Origin: a virus
Reading direction: 5' to 3' (one strand)
Virus record (IMG/VR): IMGVR_UViG_3300048008_000051
Location: 1-37,876 of that record
DNA length: 37,876 nt
A program made the position numbers and the translations under genes. The notes under the pieces were generated by a model that did not search any database, was not told the DNA's origin, and saw nothing but the letters and a program-made list of their open reading frames with translations. Of this stretch, positions 4,204 through 8,800 are shown piece after piece (position 1 is the stretch's first letter; each line of letters starts with the position of its first letter).

Positions 4204-4403
4204 TACGCAACCTCCTCTTCTATCTCATCCAAAGTTATCTCAGTGTCTAGTGTATGCTTATTACACATCTCATCAAACACAGAATCGGGACACTCTTTAA
4301 AGAGGTGTTCATAGATGTCCTCATCTTCTACATGGTCAGGCACTTCATACTCTGGATACCAAGTATCAGTGCGTGTAAGTACAAGTTTTATTGTCCTAGG
4401 CAT
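4203..4403 (-). CDS. Acidic hypothetical protein, 66 aa
   Basis: The product opens with a basic strand-like segment (MPRTIKLVLTRTDTWYPEYE), then becomes very acidic (VPDHVEDEDIYEHLF and the C-terminal DEIEEEVA). High negative charge over a small domain can indicate DNA mimicry, but that is speculation. A GGAGATA sequence lies just upstream of the start. No family recognised. Confidence 0.65.
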   Translation of the reverse strand: MPRTIKLVLTRTDTWYPEYEVPDHVEDEDIYEHLFKECPDSVFDEMCNKHTLDTEITLDEIEEEVA

Positions 4404-4453
4404 TGTCTATCTCCTATACACCGTGCCAGCTTTATTACTAAAAGTATCACTAG

Positions 4454-4678
4454 CTACCCAGCGAAGTGACGTACACGGCGTGAGCCTAGCTTGTTGAGTG
4501 TCTTCTCAAGGTACACGCTGCGCTTGCCAAGGTGCAAGGCTGTCATGCAAGAGCCACGCTGTACACCGTAGCGCTTCTTAGACTGACGCTTACGGGTCAG
4601 ACCTTTGAAGCCTACAAGGTTGAAGCGGAAGCCACGAGTGCCATCATTGAGCGGTTTGGTTGCGATACATACGAACAT
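4454..4678 (-). CDS. Small basic hypothetical protein, 74 aa
   Basis: The product is rich in Arg and Lys (GLTRKRQSKKRYGVQRG and NKLGSRRVRHFAG), in clear contrast to its acidic neighbours, and could bind nucleic acid. No zinc site is apparent from its two cysteines (Cys4, Cys44). It follows the 42-residue gene with a 1-bp gap. About 50 bp separate its end from the next start, the widest spacing in this part of the operon. Confidence 0.65.
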   Translation of the reverse strand: MFVCIATKPLNDGTRGFRFNLVGFKGLTRKRQSKKRYGVQRGSCMTALHLGKRSVYLEKTLNKLGSRRVRHFAG

Positions 4679-4679
4679 A

Positions 4680-4808
4680 TTATTTAGTCTCCAGTTGGTT
4701 GCGAATCTCTGATAGTAAGGATATTAGTTCTTTGTTGTTCTTCATCTTGGTGTCAGGTAAGATCTTCTCACACATACTTAAGATCTTCAAGTTAAGTGCA
4801 TTAGTCAT
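4680..4808 (-). CDS. Small hypothetical protein, 42 aa
   Basis: The frame starts MTNALNLKILSMCEKILPDT and ends SEIRNQLETK with a TAA at 4680-4682. It is predicted helical. It fills exactly the gap between two longer genes (4 bp after one, 1 bp before the next). Support is positional; no family is recognised. Confidence 0.5.
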   Translation of the reverse strand: MTNALNLKILSMCEKILPDTKMKNNKELISLLSEIRNQLETK

Positions 4809-4812
4809 AGCA

Positions 4813-5166
4813 TTATAATCCTAGCTTTTGCAATAGGGCATCATCTTCTTGCGTAAAGGTATCAGTATCTACCTTGGTGTAGTTACTATCCCAGTACTGT
4901 TCTTTATACAAGGGGTCAGCCCATGTCAAGGTCAACCCATAGGTAGCCTCACTTATGTAGCTATCGCCTAGCTCGAATGAACCATAGGTCATGTCTGTCT
5001 TAACAGCAATGAACCAACGTGCATACTTGTTAGACTTCTCTTTATCAGGGCGCTGGTATGTCTTGAGTAAGCGCATCTCTGTCTCACCGAAGGGGCCATG
5101 CCCTTTGAATACAGCGTAGGGTTTATCTTGTGGGCGGGACTTACCTAGTAGGTTCTTAGTTGTCAT
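4813..5166 (-). CDS. Hypothetical protein, 117 aa
   Basis: The start MTTKNLLGKSRPQDKPYAVF at 5166 is preferred over an ATG 18 bp upstream because a perfect GGAGG lies 7-8 bases before it. The product has mixed strands and aromatic residues (NKYARWFIAVKTDMTYGSF) and an acidic C-terminus. It overlaps the upstream gene by 11 bp. A copy of the palindromic repeat lies 114 bp upstream of this start, inside the preceding gene, so this gene may be separately regulated. No family recognised. Confidence 0.7.
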   Translation of the reverse strand: MTTKNLLGKSRPQDKPYAVFKGHGPFGETEMRLLKTYQRPDKEKSNKYARWFIAVKTDMTYGSFELGDSYISEATYGLTLTWADPLYKEQYWDSNYTKVDTDTFTQEDDALLQKLGL

Positions 5167-5446
5167 TGTCTTTACCTCCATCAATTACAATTAGCTTGGC
5201 CTTGGGTCGTTTGGTAGGCCGTAGTATGTCTAACCTATAAGCATAGAATGTCTCATAGTCAACCTCATCAAGTCTTAGTATCGGACGATCCGAGACTAGA
5301 TCGAACCAAGCCATAGGGTATGTGCTCTCAAGTATACCCAGCATGAGCTTGCCACTATACTCAGAGGTGGTGGCAGTAATCAAGTGCCACTCACCGTTCA
5401 CATTCTCGCATAGATAACGAGTGTCTGCATCTACTTCTGTCATCAT
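5156..5446 (-). CDS. Hypothetical protein, 96 aa
   Basis: The product begins MMTEVDADTRYLCENVNGEW and has a small alpha/beta look (GEWHLITATTSEYSGKLMLG, then FDLVSDRPILRL). The segment SDRP is encoded by a copy of the palindromic repeat at 5281-5293, so the repeat is accommodated inside a coding sequence here. The end is Lys/Asp-rich (IDGGKDNDN) and overlaps the next gene. Function unknown. Confidence 0.7.
   Translation of the reverse strand: MMTEVDADTRYLCENVNGEWHLITATTSEYSGKLMLGILESTYPMAWFDLVSDRPILRLDEVDYETFYAYRLDILRPTKRPKAKLIVIDGGKDNDN
5278..5297 (-). repeat. Palindromic repeat copy A (long-spacing type)
   Basis: The core TCGGACGATCCGA is at 5281-5293, inside the 96-residue gene. With its flank CTTAGTA it resembles copy E. 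It lies about 114 bp upstream of the start codon at 5166. Confidence 0.7.
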
Positions 5447-5808
5447 AGTAAAGCCCTCATAGTTGTACCTTCATCAGAGTTAGTTGATAGCACAGCTATT
5501 TGTGCATTGTCAATAGTCTCTTCAGTGTGCTTATTTACGAAGCTACTATACTTGTATGGGTTGTAGGTTACATCTGTGTACAACTCAGGTGAATATGACA
5601 TGTCTTCATATCCCATAAGCTCACCCCTAACGAAAGCATGTACGTTCTTCTTACGTTCACGCAGTACCCGTAAACGCCCAGCCTTACGCACTACGAACTT
5701 AGGATTGTATACAGTGACATCATTGGTGTGCTTAACTACACGTCCTGTGTAACAGTCACGCACACTGAATAGTTTTTTGTGTAGGTTAAAATATACTTCT
5801 ACTCTCAT
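5443..5808 (-). CDS. Conserved phage hypothetical protein, 121 aa
   Basis: The N-terminal 75 residues (MRVEVYFNLHKKLFSVRDCY, then VRKAGRLRVLRERKKNVHAF) match a pattern I recall from many phages of varied hosts, with a core of R-V-E-V-Y-x-N-L-H-K and K-N-V-H-A-[FY]-V-x-G-E. No function is established for it. The basic middle suggests nucleic-acid contact. The C-terminal 45 residues look like an added, less conserved tail. Overlaps of 4 bp at both ends fit the operon. Confidence 0.78.
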   Translation of the reverse strand: MRVEVYFNLHKKLFSVRDCYTGRVVKHTNDVTVYNPKFVVRKAGRLRVLRERKKNVHAFVRGELMGYEDMSYSPELYTDVTYNPYKYSSFVNKHTEETIDNAQIAVLSTNSDEGTTMRALL

Positions 5809-5993
5809 TCGTTTATCTCCTGTTTCACTAACTCTTCAACATAATCATAGTGCACATTGAATACGTCTTGCGCTTCATCAGAGTATGACACATCACCATT
5901 AGGTTGTGTAACGTATGGATAACCATCAAAGGTGCACTCCACAACGTAATCTGCTAGGTGCGCTGCTAGACTTAGCACTTGTTCATGTGTCAT
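5805..5993 (-). CDS. Small acidic hypothetical protein, 62 aa
   Basis: The product starts MTHEQVLSLAAHLADYVVEC and has two likely helices separated by a Tyr/Pro-rich loop (FDGYPYVTQPNGDVSY), ending YVEELVKQEINE. It overlaps the following gene by 4 bp. No known family. Confidence 0.65.
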   Translation of the reverse strand: MTHEQVLSLAAHLADYVVECTFDGYPYVTQPNGDVSYSDEAQDVFNVHYDYVEELVKQEINE

Positions 5994-5996
5994 CTG

Positions 5997-6302
5997 TTAC
6001 TCTCCTTCTTTAGGTTGGGCATCTGATATAGCTGACATCCATGCAGTTATTAGTGGCATGTAATGAGCTTCAGTGTTAACGAACACAAAGCCAGATGTCA
6101 AGCCACCCATTCTCCACTTACCCTGCCAGCCTAGCTTGTTGAGTAACAGCTGCGCTGCATGTGTGTGGTTGCCTTCTACGTTCAAGCTGTGATCCCACCC
6201 AACAGTATAGGTGGAACCTTTATGACCGCTGGATGTCATAGCTTTGATGCGTGAACCCAGCGTGTTTGTTGCAGGTAGATATTTTGTGATGATAGTTTGC
6301 AT
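5997..6302 (-). CDS. Conserved phage hypothetical protein, 101 aa
   Basis: The product begins MQTIITKYLPATNTLGSRIK, a pattern I recall from other phages as a small protein with conserved KYLPATNxxGSRIKA near the start, W-D-H-x-L-x-x-x-x-N-H-x-x-A-A in the middle and G-F-V-F-V near the end. Function is not known. It lies 2 bp after the helix-hairpin-helix gene, so the two are probably co-expressed. Confidence 0.72.
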   Translation of the reverse strand: MQTIITKYLPATNTLGSRIKAMTSSGHKGSTYTVGWDHSLNVEGNHTHAAQLLLNKLGWQGKWRMGGLTSGFVFVNTEAHYMPLITAWMSAISDAQPKEGE

Positions 6303-6304
6303 AG

Positions 6305-6922
6305 TTATTCTCCCATAATTACTGCTGCTACATGATACTTAGAGACAGCATCACCAGTTGGCAAGGACTTATTTATGCCGCCCTTCTCAGCTACATAGTT
6401 GCACCATGTATTCCACCAATACTCAGCACCCTTGCGGCGGCATAGCTTGACGTAGTTGCGGATCTTGCTACGGCGTAGCTCAGGCTTGACCTTCTTGTTC
6501 AAGAGCAGGGCAGTCTCAGGCAAGCCAAGCATACGGATGTTATGACGATCAAGGCAAGCCACCTCAAAGCCACACATCTGTGCAATGAAGCCAGCCTTCA
6601 CCATGCCTATAGAGGGTATAGACACAAAGAGATCCACTGCCTCTTGCGCACCATCTATAGTGTCCTTGCCATGTAGCTCAGCTATGGCGTTGATCTCTGC
6701 ATGTAAGCGCTGGGCGTTAGCCTTAGCGTACTCTATGCCCAGCGCCTTAGTGGATGACACCCACTTAGACTGTACACCCTCAGCCTTGATGGACACACGC
6801 TGTTGTATGACACGGGAGATAGGCATGTTGATGGTGCATAAAGTGAATTCAACTATGTCATACAACCCATCAGGTGTAGACATGGCGTGTTGTGTGATTA
6901 ATGTGCAGTCACGTTGATACAT
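6305..6922 (-). CDS. Helix-hairpin-helix (HhH-GPD-like) DNA repair or modification protein
   Basis: The 205-residue product contains IPSIGMVKAGFI at about residues 101-112, an HhH motif, followed by CLDRHNIRMLGL, which matches the V-D-x-H-x-x-R segment carrying the catalytic Asp of HhH-GPD DNA glycosylases. The lysine of bifunctional enzymes (EndoIII Lys120) is not in register, so a monofunctional glycosylase is more likely than an AP lyase. No iron-sulfur cysteine cluster is seen. The C-terminal half is basic (KKVKPELRRSKIRNYVKLC). A palindromic repeat lies 26 bp upstream of its start and a GGAG Shine-Dalgarno precedes the ATG. Substrate unknown. Confidence 0.65.
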   Translation of the reverse strand: MYQRDCTLITQHAMSTPDGLYDIVEFTLCTINMPISRVIQQRVSIKAEGVQSKWVSSTKALGIEYAKANAQRLHAEINAIAELHGKDTIDGAQEAVDLFVSIPSIGMVKAGFIAQMCGFEVACLDRHNIRMLGLPETALLLNKKVKPELRRSKIRNYVKLCRRKGAEYWWNTWCNYVAEKGGINKSLPTGDAVSKYHVAAVIMGE

Positions 6923-6940
6923 TGTGAAGTCTCCTATAAG

Positions 6941-6975
6941 TTTTAGTCACGGACGATCCGAGAGTAGGGTTTCAG
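6941..6975 (-). repeat. Palindromic repeat copy B (short-spacing type)
   Basis: The core CGGACGATCCG is at 6950-6960 with the shared flanks TTTAGTC and GAGTAGGGTTTCAG. It lies 26 bp upstream of the start codon at 6922 and covers the stop of the gene before it. Confidence 0.78.
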
Positions 6976-7195
6976 CATTTATGTTAGCCTTGATGATAGC
7001 ATCCATATCTTCAATAGCTTTGTCAATCTCATTTCTTTTGTACTTAACGCCACTAATCTCACCAGCCTTAGCCATCAGCTTAGTCTTTGTAATGTTACGG
7101 GCAGGCTTAAGCCCTATGCGTACCATCTTAAGCGCTGCCTTAACGAAGATCGCTTGTACTTCAGGGCGTCCAGGGTTTTCAATAACGTATGACAT
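6947..7195 (-). CDS. Small basic hypothetical protein, 82 aa
   Basis: The product starts MSYVIENPGRPEVQAIFVKA, is basic in the middle (LKPARNITKTKLMAKAG) and helical at the end. The last four codons (SDRP) and the stop at 6947-6949 are within a copy of the palindromic repeat, so the repeat serves both as coding end and as the upstream region of the next gene. No family recognised. Confidence 0.7.
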   Translation of the reverse strand: MSYVIENPGRPEVQAIFVKAALKMVRIGLKPARNITKTKLMAKAGEISGVKYKRNEIDKAIEDMDAIIKANINAETLLSDRP

Positions 7196-7199
7196 GTGC

Positions 7200-7397
7200 T
7201 TACCTCTCTACTATACGGGATGACTTGAAGTCATTATCTATATGAACAAACTTAACTGTACCATCTATGCCATCATCATCATAGACATGCTCTTCGAACA
7301 AACGAAACGACTCAGCTGCATCCTCTGTGCCTACCTCATCCACATAGGTAGTATGCTCACCATCGTTATATACGAGTACGATAACTTGTATTAACAT
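7200..7397 (-). CDS. Small acidic hypothetical protein, 65 aa
   Basis: The product begins MLIQVIVLVYNDGEHTTYVD, with a strand-helix-strand pattern (EDAAESFRLFEEHVYDDDG then VKFVHIDNDF). Such a small ferredoxin-like fold is plausible but unproven. A palindromic repeat lies 25 bp upstream of its ATG, and AGGAA serves as ribosome binding site. This is the first gene after the repeat copy at 7422-7436. Confidence 0.65.
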   Translation of the reverse strand: MLIQVIVLVYNDGEHTTYVDEVGTEDAAESFRLFEEHVYDDDGIDGTVKFVHIDNDFKSSRIVER

Positions 7398-7400
7398 GTG

Positions 7401-7592
7401 TTATTCCTTTCTAGGTTTAGTCTCGGACGATCCGAGGGTAGAAACTGAAACGCTATCAATCTCTTGCGTATATATAGAAGACCCCATAGCAGAACGATTG
7501 TCAACACCCCATTTTGAGGTGCTGAACCATTGCGATGCGTGATGCCATAGATACTTGTCAGGCCTAAGCCTCGTGCGCTTGCGCTTAGACAT
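7401..7592 (-). CDS. Hypothetical protein, 63 aa, C-terminus encoded by the repeat
   Basis: The start MSKRKRTRLRPDKYLWHHAS at 7592 is preferred because an upstream ATG at 7655 would overlap the membrane-protein gene by 58 bp. The N-terminus is very basic. The final residues SVSTLGSSETKPRKE are read from the 36-bp repeat at 7415-7450, so the coding end, repeat and the next ribosome binding site all overlap. The repeat may have been inserted into the gene end. Whether the protein is functional is uncertain. Confidence 0.5.
   Translation of the reverse strand: MSKRKRTRLRPDKYLWHHASQWFSTSKWGVDNRSAMGSSIYTQEIDSVSVSTLGSSETKPRKE
7415..7450 (-). repeat. Palindromic repeat copy C (36 bp, short-spacing type)
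   Basis: The palindrome CTCGGACGATCCGAG is at 7422-7436 and is followed by GGTAGAAACTGAAA. All 36 bp match copy D except two central bases. It lies 25 bp upstream of the start at 7397. Confidence 0.85.
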
Positions 7593-7597
7593 GTATC

Positions 7598-7720
7598 TCA
7601 CAGCAAGCCCTGCCCTACCGCATAGCCAAAGAAATAGCCTAAGCCTATCAGGCATAGCACGTTGAGCGTCATTGTTATTTTAAAGATTAGATTATATCGT
7701 TGTTCTCTTTTGCGTGTCAT
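7598..7720 (-). CDS. Small single-span membrane protein, 40 aa
   Basis: The product starts MTRKREQRYNLIFKITMTLN, a basic N-terminus, followed by one transmembrane helix (VLCLIGLGYFFGYAVGQGLL). The start at 7720 has AGGAAC about 7 bases upstream and a palindromic repeat 25 bp upstream. A longer reading from 7882 would have to pass through the terminator and the upstream gene and is not credible. Charge distribution suggests an N-in orientation. It could be an early membrane-acting peptide; function unknown. Confidence 0.6.
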   Translation of the reverse strand: MTRKREQRYNLIFKITMTLNVLCLIGLGYFFGYAVGQGLL

Positions 7721-7737
7721 TACGTTGTTCCTTTGTG

Positions 7738-7773
7738 GTTTAGTCTCGGACAGTCCGAGGGTAGAAACTGAAA
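7738..7773 (-). repeat. Palindromic repeat copy D (36 bp, perfect palindrome)
   Basis: CTCGGACAGTCCGAG at 7745-7759 is a perfect 15-bp dyad with one central base. It lies 25 bp upstream of the start at 7720 and immediately after the leftward terminator, as expected for a control element of the next transcription unit. Confidence 0.87.
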
Positions 7774-7801
7774 AGCAAAGAGGCTTCCCGAAGGAAGCCC
7801 C
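7771..7801 (-). terminator. Rho-independent terminator after the first leftward gene
   Basis: Read leftward, GGGGCTTCC and GGAAGCCTC pair over nine positions (one G-U) around a UUCG tetraloop, followed by TTTGCTTTT. It lies 14 bp after the stop of the 178-residue gene, so that gene is likely a separate transcription unit. Confidence 0.88.
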
Positions 7802-7814
7802 TGCCCTGCCCCGC

Positions 7815-8351
7815 TTAGGCTGAGGCCTTGGCTGCGGCGTTGAAGGCCTTGCGGAATGCGGCGACGGTGATGCCAGCTTCACTCAGCTGCTGCATAACCG
7901 CTTGAGCCATTGCCTCAGGTGTCACTTGCTCAGGCTGTGCCTCTGCAGGCTTGGCCTTGCCTTTGGATGTGTTACCTGCAGCGCTTGCCTTCTTGACCCG
8001 TTTCCGAACCGCTGAAGCGCCGAGTGAATTAAGTTCACCGTTTTTGTTTAGCTTCGCTACCTTGTCCCAGTTAGAGGCAACGAACATGGCGTCATTACGA
8101 TCTTGCATAGACCGCTTACCTAAAGGTGTAGCTTTGATAGCAGCACCGTATTGCTTATCGCTTTTGTATACGCTGCGGAGTGTGAGCAGCCATTCGCCAA
8201 TGTCACGGGTTTGCAAGAGCACAAGCTCAGCTGTGTCATCACGCTTGTCGAACATGTGAGCTACATGGTCACAGGCTTGGCTGAATGTGTGGGTCTGACC
8301 GTCGAATGTGACCGTTGCGTCGATGTGTGATTTTGCGATTGCGTTTGTCAT
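7815..8351 (-). CDS. Head gene of the leftward region, putative DNA-binding or regulatory protein, 178 aa
   Basis: The start MTNAIAKSHIDATVTFDGQT at 8351 has AGGAA upstream; an ATG at 8396 is possible but lacks this. Residues 40-115 appear to be a compact helical domain (TRDIGEWLLTLRSVYKSDKQ, then LNSLGASAVRKRVKKA with an HTH-like look). A Lys/Ala/Pro linker leads to a C-terminal helix (EAMAQAVMQQLSEAGITVAA). The basic segments suggest DNA or RNA binding. It is the gene nearest the control region and has its own promoter candidate, palindrome copy and terminator, as expected of a regulator or an abundant early DNA-binding protein. No family recognised. Confidence 0.6.
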   Translation of the reverse strand: MTNAIAKSHIDATVTFDGQTHTFSQACDHVAHMFDKRDDTAELVLLQTRDIGEWLLTLRSVYKSDKQYGAAIKATPLGKRSMQDRNDAMFVASNWDKVAKLNKNGELNSLGASAVRKRVKKASAAGNTSKGKAKPAEAQPEQVTPEAMAQAVMQQLSEAGITVAAFRKAFNAAAKASA

Positions 8352-8398
8352 TTGGGTATTCCTTTCGGGTTGTGGCATGATTGCCGGTTGATGCATTC

Positions 8399-8427
8399 AA
8401 ATTGACCGATAACGCCGAGACTGTCAA
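8399..8427 (-). promoter_or_regulatory. Candidate leftward sigma70-type promoter
   Basis: Read leftward, a perfect TTGACA (8422-8427) is followed after 17 bases by CAATTT (8399-8404). The -35 is ideal but the -10 is weak (two to three matches), so an activator may be needed. It would start transcription about 40 bp before the 178-residue gene; palindrome copy E is just upstream. Confidence 0.45.
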
Positions 8428-8456
8428 ACGCTTTTTTTACCCCTTTAGGGGTAGAT

Positions 8457-8490
8457 CTTAGTATCGGACTGTCCGAGGGTAGGAATTAGG
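8457..8490 (-). repeat. Palindromic repeat copy E (long-spacing type)
   Basis: The core TCGGACTGTCCGA at 8464-8476 is followed by GGGTAGGAATTAG. It lies 112 bp upstream of the start at 8351 and about 37 bp upstream of the candidate leftward promoter. Confidence 0.8.
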
Positions 8491-8800
8491 GCAAAACGAA
8501 TCACTTTGACCGAGTGGAACGAATTAGCAACATTGCCTCGTGTGATGCGCCTGAGTGCCTGCATGATGTGCCTGCCTGGGTGTGATGCGTGAGTAGGTGT
8601 GCATCAGGCGTGATGGGGTGGGGGTGTGCTTGTGTGCAAGTGCTACAGGGGGGTGTGGGTATTACATGCATGAATGCCTGCATTGTGCACGTGTGCGTGT
8701 AAGTCCGTGTAAACATGGGAAAAAGCGCTGCGTGACATACTCAATAACTATAAAAAGCATTACATTCCAACGACATAGCCTTGCATGATGCACGCAAACG
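8490..8800. other. Non-coding GT-rich control region with possible G-quadruplex
   Basis: The top strand is rich in GTG and TGC words and contains short direct repeats (GTGTGATGCG twice near 8540 and 8580; TGCCTGCAT twice). G-runs at 8615-8618, 8620-8624, 8648-8653 and 8657-8659 could form a quadruplex whose long middle loop contains the hairpin CTTG-TGTG-CAAG. Frames here on either strand give repetitive Cys/His/Thr peptides and are not credible genes. A replication origin or regulatory role is possible but unproven. Confidence 0.45.

Follow-up and report, generated by a model that had tools for sequence, protein, structure and literature searches.

A repeated palindrome in the early operon of an HMO-2011-type marine phage and the 178-residue protein that probably reads it

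What reads a short palindrome that is repeated five times among the leftward genes of an uncultured phage, and what would it do there? The question is raised by IMG/VR virus record IMGVR_UViG_3300048008_000051, of which positions 1 to 37,876 were analysed (hereafter the window, a 37.9-kb phage fragment). Its portal, coat and terminase proteins are closest to those of Roseobacter phage CRP-2 among named phages, and the phage is of the HMO-2011 type (PMC6918029, PMC9038755). From 8351 the early operon extends leftward; it includes the genes for integrase, primase and ThyX (thymidylate synthase), and begins with the gene of a 178-residue protein. The five dyads, named O1 to O5, are probably operators of a homodimer of this protein, which would be an autoregulated early repressor with dispersed operators or roadblocks (probability about 0.72, as judged from sequence comparison).

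The dyad WCGGANNNTCCGW was found at 5281, 6949, 7423, 7746 and 8464, exactly as a preliminary description of this DNA had reported, and nowhere else in the window. Against these five copies, 100 dinucleotide shuffles of the window gave 0.01 on average and never more than 1. The copies and the gene of the candidate reader are as follows.

8459-8481 (core 8464-8476), minus strand: O1, dyad copy 1, upstream of the early promoter P1
7741-7763 (core 7746-7758), minus strand: O2, dyad copy 2, past the terminator of the 178-residue protein gene, the start at 7720 following after 25 bp
7418-7440 (core 7423-7435), minus strand: O3, dyad copy 3, downstream of the promoter P2, the start at 7397 following after 25 bp
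6944-6966 (core 6949-6961), minus strand: O4, dyad copy 4, 26 bp before the start at 6922
5276-5298 (core 5281-5293), minus strand: O5, dyad copy 5, within the coding sequence 5156-5446
7815-8351, minus strand: gene of the 178-residue protein, proposed as a dimeric DNA-binding regulator on co-occurrence and a residue-base code

The site takes the form TA-NNN-WCGGAYNRTCCGW-NNN-TA, a 13-bp core within a 23-bp symmetric dyad; outside the core, positions ±7, ±10 and ±11 are symmetric, while ±8 and ±9 are asymmetric. Half-site statistics were made on 86 distinct 23-mers. The pairs at ±6 were T..A in 63, A..A in 13, T..T in 9 and A..T in 1, and those at ±1 were C..G in 53, T..G in 25, C..A in 8 and T..A in none. 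Substitutions hit the two half-sites independently, and no compensatory base-pair changes were seen among them. In a paired RNA stem, mismatches should be rarer than A..T and T..A, thus the element should be taken as a dyad in DNA, and symmetry combined with independent half-site variation is, on these statistics, the signature of a dimer site on DNA.

Two copies carry a further trace of what surrounds them. The changed A/T arm of O4 at 6949 reads CCG TGA on the coding strand, which is the stop codon of the gene 6947-7195, and CCG TAA stands at this position in the group B relatives; the arm is variant because it doubles as the stop codon of the upstream gene. The core codons of O5, TCG-GAY-CGT-CCG, were nearly invariant over ten loci, and the next two codons change the amino acid. 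The distances to the start codons had been given correctly, at 26, 25 and 25 bp for the starts at 6922, 7397 and 7720 and at 114 and 112 bp for those at 5166 and 8351. The two fixed spacing classes built on them were not kept in relatives, where start-proximal copies end 13-46 bp before the ATG with modes of 24-27 and 33 bp. Nor do the two long-distance copies make one class, the copy at 8464 being upstream of a promoter and that at 5281 inside the coding sequence, and the CTTAGTATCGG flank regarded as their common subtype is not retained at those sites in relatives.

A DNA pattern search together with a search with the 205-residue protein (6305-6922) gave 36 related loci in IMG/VR. Related phages, where the preliminary description had proposed to look for the dyad, carry the same core at corresponding places in loci of 66-98% identity. 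It was not found in G014/G015 (57% identity), nor in the cultured phages CRP-2, CRP-9, CRP-13 and CRP-207. The gene of the 178-residue protein shows a matching distribution, occurring in dyad groups A-D but in none of G014, CRP-2, CRP-9 and CRP-207. With this protein alone as the query, 49 loci were retrieved, the most distant at 34% identity; those examined with enough flanking sequence had the dyad, or a variant of it, in the same architecture, the outer letters being changed in L123 and L125. Of 20 early proteins of the window, the 178-residue protein alone had a homologue in each of 11 distant dyad loci; other regulator candidates (the 96-residue and 205-residue proteins and others) were missing from distant dyad phages and were rejected. 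The dyad-bearing phages are uncultured HMO-2011-type phages with a 178-residue homologue, and no homologues were found in GTDB genomes, cultured phages or plasmids.

Some relatives depart from the common form of the site. In L104 (3865, 4674, 4915) and L105 (7832, 8898), every copy found has 4 bp, not the usual 3, between its CGGA half-sites. In L045, a variant dyad TTGGA-ATT-TCCAA lies at 555-567 upstream of the 205-residue protein gene, where the surroundings are otherwise those of group D; the specificity may have switched, and the contig stops short of the regulator gene; a search for this type of dyad, TTGGAATTTCCAA, gave only its own contig and two further contigs. Among dyad-less relatives, L052/L055 (CRP-9) and L059/L060 (CRP-13) have an array of 3-4 copies of the palindrome GTTTAA-N2-TTAAAC, intergenic before early genes, which are perhaps operators of a different regulator. 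L048, which also lacks the dyad, has tandem repeats at 4207-5460, with 15/30-bp units of the ACCTTAGGGGTG type and 33-bp units of GGCACCCTTGTGGAA.

The strongest link between sites and protein is in the flanks. The 5-bp flanks are alike among the copies within a phage and different between phages, with a distance of 0.159 within genomes and 0.554 between genomes (permutation p about 0.0002). The O1 flank follows the same rule, at 0.152 to copies of its own genome and 0.580 to O1 of other genomes. Since the flanks change in concert within a genome, they should be read by something acting in trans. In an unbiased scan over all columns of the 178-residue protein, column 82 came first for ±7 (adjusted mutual information, AMI, 0.73) and column 66 came first for ±10/11 (AMI 0.93). 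At residue 82, R or K goes with G at ±7 in every half-site scored, A mainly with T, M mainly with C, and F with A or C. At residue 66, the pairs with ±10/11 are K:TA, V:AT, I:CG and, in L103, R:AT. The window protein has K66 and M82.

On a maximum-likelihood tree built with columns 66 and 82 removed, 4/4 changes of residue 66 coincided with 4/4 changes of the ±10/11 bases, which no other column does, and column 82 was the best column for ±7. Close pairs behave in the same way. L098 and L026 are 92% identical and have M82 with C and A82 with T, respectively, L098 being convergent with the clade of the window; L118 and L121 are 88% identical and have K82 with G and F82 with A or C, respectively. 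Co-occurrence and this code together leave the 178-residue protein, already suggested for gel shifts, as the best candidate reader, and it very probably binds the dyads directly.

The placement of the sites bears on what such binding would do, and it depends on the following predicted elements.

8422-8427, minus strand: P1, predicted -35 box TTGACA of the early promoter of the 178-residue protein gene, an exact TTGACA in 22/22 loci
7499-7504, minus strand: P2, TTGACA predicted as the -35 box of another early promoter; in all groups it precedes O3 by 53-73 bp
7779-7802, minus strand: T1, hairpin like an intrinsic terminator with a T-rich tail, between the 178-residue protein gene and O2
8432-8453, minus strand: dyad TACCCCTAAAGGGGTA followed by an A-tract (AAAAAA), between O1 and the P1 -35 box, read from the sequence

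O1 is followed by the exact TTGACA after 31-45 bp in the 22/22 loci compared, and its core ends 109-136 bp from the gene start over the 22 loci. O3 would lie roughly 20-40 bp downstream of the presumed P2 start. Hairpins like T1 were read at the corresponding place in relatives. Other dyad copies are at gene starts, some of them overlapping the end of the upstream gene, and some are within genes; group B has extra copies inside the 205-residue protein gene and inside a structural gene ~17 kb away. There are 5-8 sites per record, mostly confined to the early operon, and the near-complete distant genomes G019, G020 and G021 have five copies within about 4 kb.

Other repeats were observed around the same promoter. 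The arms of the TACCCCTAAAGGGGTA dyad co-vary in relatives (TACCC/GGGTA, TATCC/GGATA, TACC/GGTA), and the element is no terminator in either direction. Repeats of ACGAATCA (or TGATTCGT) occur in the window (8496-8503), in L058 (14224-14411) and L029 (3134-3248); they are found in the window, in group B and in the cultured phage CRP-207, and may be a second operator or an origin repeat. Near the first element of L034, L037, L039 and L118-L126, GCATAATGC or GCATTATGC lies within CTTTTCC...GGAAAAG/CCAAAAG arms, another regulatory dyad with a shifting place: groups C/D have it downstream of O1, distant groups on the upstream side.

A scheme for the early operon could be drawn from these positions. 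The 178-residue protein would be made first, from P1, its gene ending at the terminator T1. Each subunit of a dimer would read one half-site through the near-invariant CGGA core, while ±7 would be read through residue 82 and ±10/11 through residue 66. Bound to O1 upstream of P1, the protein would limit its own promoter (autoregulation); bound to O3 just downstream of P2, it would close P2 and the early operon; on O2, O4 and O5, at gene junctions and inside genes, it could partly block elongation. The most likely outcome would be repressed initiation or blocked elongation across the early operon, and binding with repression or roadblock is probable. From the observed sites, their conservation, their co-occurrence with the protein, the residue-base code and the promoter positions, we infer physical binding, dimerisation, the direction of control (repression or roadblock) and a biological role in early shut-off or lysogenic immunity.

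Several results weigh against this repressor scheme. No significant Pfam, PHROG, PDB-sequence or fold match was found for the 178-residue protein, so that no DNA-binding fold was recognised; the fold search used two AlphaFold2 (AF2) models, Foldseek against PDB and BFVD, and VIA-align. The AF2 models reached a predicted local distance difference test score (pLDDT) of 78-79 and a predicted template modelling score (pTM) of 0.5; residues 66 and 82 are at or near the starts of the predicted helices 65-73 and 82-93. Weak structural matches in BFVD were to two DUF3102 proteins (prob 0.63 and 0.47), and the PF11300 (DUF3102) profile matched nothing in nine dyad genomes at E 10. The -10 boxes are weak, and the calls of P1 and P2 depend on the conservation of TTGACA. 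The sites have a strand bias, TNG 25 versus CNA 8, which a symmetric site does not need. Only 2-4 residue and base changes are independent; all go in the expected direction, and a sign test on so few cannot reach significance. L119 has one off-type site. The distance between whole proteins was not significantly correlated with flank distance (Mantel 0.13, p 0.15), as is expected where few residues decide.

The other reading offered in the preliminary description was a hairpin in the 5' untranslated region of the early mRNAs, acting on translation, stability or processing and perhaps bound as RNA by the 178-residue protein. The operator half of that description gained strong support and the hairpin half fell. 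The sites can form a stem of five to six base pairs closed by a three-base loop, most copies are on the coding strand 13-46 nt upstream of start codons, an RNA loop would easily tolerate the 4-bp spacer of L104/L105, and TNG outnumbers CNA on the coding strand. Still, O1 is upstream of its promoter in all loci compared, at ±6 the mismatches A..A and T..T are common while the pairing A..T is rare, at ±1 C..A occurs and T..A does not, ±9 is unpaired, and copies lie inside coding sequences. Folding of the five sites was no more stable than that of shuffles (z -0.92 to +0.70), and the element had no match in Rfam. On the half-site statistics, the position of O1 upstream of the P1 -35 box and the folding z-scores, the RNA hairpin was rejected as very improbable. 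A promoter of a phage RNA polymerase was also discarded, the site being symmetric and no RNA polymerase gene being noticed in the window.

If the dyads are DNA sites, the protein might instead be an activator or dual regulator that switches the operon on from O1 and other sites. O1, 31-45 bp upstream of the -35 box, has the typical place of an activator site and its role could equally be activation, which also counts against the repressor scheme; in addition, sites flank the start of several early transcription units. But the -35 boxes of P1 and P2 are consensus TTGACA, and boxes of that kind seldom need activators; the distance from O1 to the -35 box is unphased, O3 is downstream of P2, and O5 and the extra group B copies are inside genes, where activators do not act, so this reading is unlikely. 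A role in DNA maintenance, with the dyads as a parS-like centromere or a replication or packaging mark and the 178-residue protein as binding factor, would suit several copies of one palindrome with a dedicated binding protein and extra copies in coding sequences. It is highly improbable: even in very divergent phages the copies keep strictly to promoters and gene starts, a partner of the ParA type was not noticed, and near-complete genomes hold all copies within about 4 kb. That no fold or family backs DNA binding by the protein would also fit a host factor on the dyads, with the gene a mere passenger of the same module, yet the flanks vary by phage instead of following a single motif of a host, and they go with residues 66 and 82 of this protein, which leaves this reading scarcely credible. 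An early repressor acting at dispersed operators is thus preferred.

Some neighbouring features of the window and its relatives were also recorded. A 65-residue protein gene (7200-7397) is an insertion between O3 and the next gene; L005, L006, L008 and L010 are without it, and O3 there is ~25 bp before the following gene. The protein of 5443-5808 matched Pfam PF25735, the mycobacteriophage L5 gp82 family, with E 1.6e-34 in a marine roseophage relative. The non-coding region 8530-8640, rich in GCATCA/TGATGC and in GT, lies between the divergent early and late operons and is alike in relatives; it is possibly an origin. The integrase reading frame of a group D phage (G005 23521-24441, L072) has an in-frame TAG.

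Some HMO-2011-type phages have an integrase and CRP-3 was shown to integrate, while a repressor is mentioned in neither paper (PMC6918029, PMC9038755); integrase was also present in several dyad-bearing genomes. It may be proposed, only tentatively, that the 178-residue protein represents an undescribed regulator family whose residues 66 and 82 set flank specificity, and that it is the missing immunity or lysis-lysogeny switch of the integrase-bearing marine phages of this type. The dyad-bearing phages belong to a group of abundant marine viruses of bacteria, and a candidate regulator, its sites and its residue-to-base code were here obtained from metagenomic sequence alone for phages without a cultured member. 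If right, this regulator and its code would add a new family of sequence-specific DNA-binding proteins and would let one predict which of these phages cross-regulate each other.

Among known systems, the dyads had been likened to the stoperators of mycobacteriophages, and the layout bears this out while symmetry and copy number do not. The stoperators of cluster A are asymmetric 13-mers to which a monomer binds; they are aligned with transcription and number 20-30 across the genome (PMC6550527, PMC9283540). In both systems a short site recurs in the early region, at promoters, at gene junctions and within genes; its sequence differs by phage and goes with the phage's own protein, about 180 residues long as in the L5-type repressor. 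In contrast, the dyad is symmetric in its core and at ±7, ±10 and ±11, and has only 5-7 copies, mainly in the early operon. Unlike the L5-type immunity repressor, the 178-residue protein is the product of the first gene of the early operon, and nothing was found that relates it to known repressors: no repressor family matched it in Pfam or PHROGs, the L5 repressor not being compared directly.

The start-associated sequences (SAS) of cluster K phages lie 3-7 bp from the start and overlap the ribosome binding site, and their extended forms (ESAS) are inverted repeats with 17-bp arms 4-13 bp apart, with a consensus that differs between subclusters (PMC3203893). Like SAS and ESAS, the dyad is a repeated element tied to starts of non-structural genes and kept while gene content changes (PMC3203893). 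Unlike SAS, a GGGATAGGAGCCC-type repeat at the ribosome binding site, the dyad lies upstream of the Shine-Dalgarno sequence, with 13-46 bp between the end of its core and the ATG; unlike both, the dyad stands upstream of a promoter and within genes as well, and it has a candidate protein. KorA and KorB, global regulators of IncP plasmids, offer a parallel in a small dedicated dimeric repressor with several palindromic operators on one replicon (PMC4889941). They differ in that the present system is in a phage early operon, with no sequence relation found and only a weak, non-significant KorA fold match. No paper with the dyad motif in phages was found in the literature. Sites in multiple copies beyond chance at regulatory positions and a phage-encoded protein co-varying with them were both observed, which would place the locus among phage regulators with dispersed operators, and within this general kind the 178-residue protein appears to be a previously undescribed on/off switch protein with its own set of sites.

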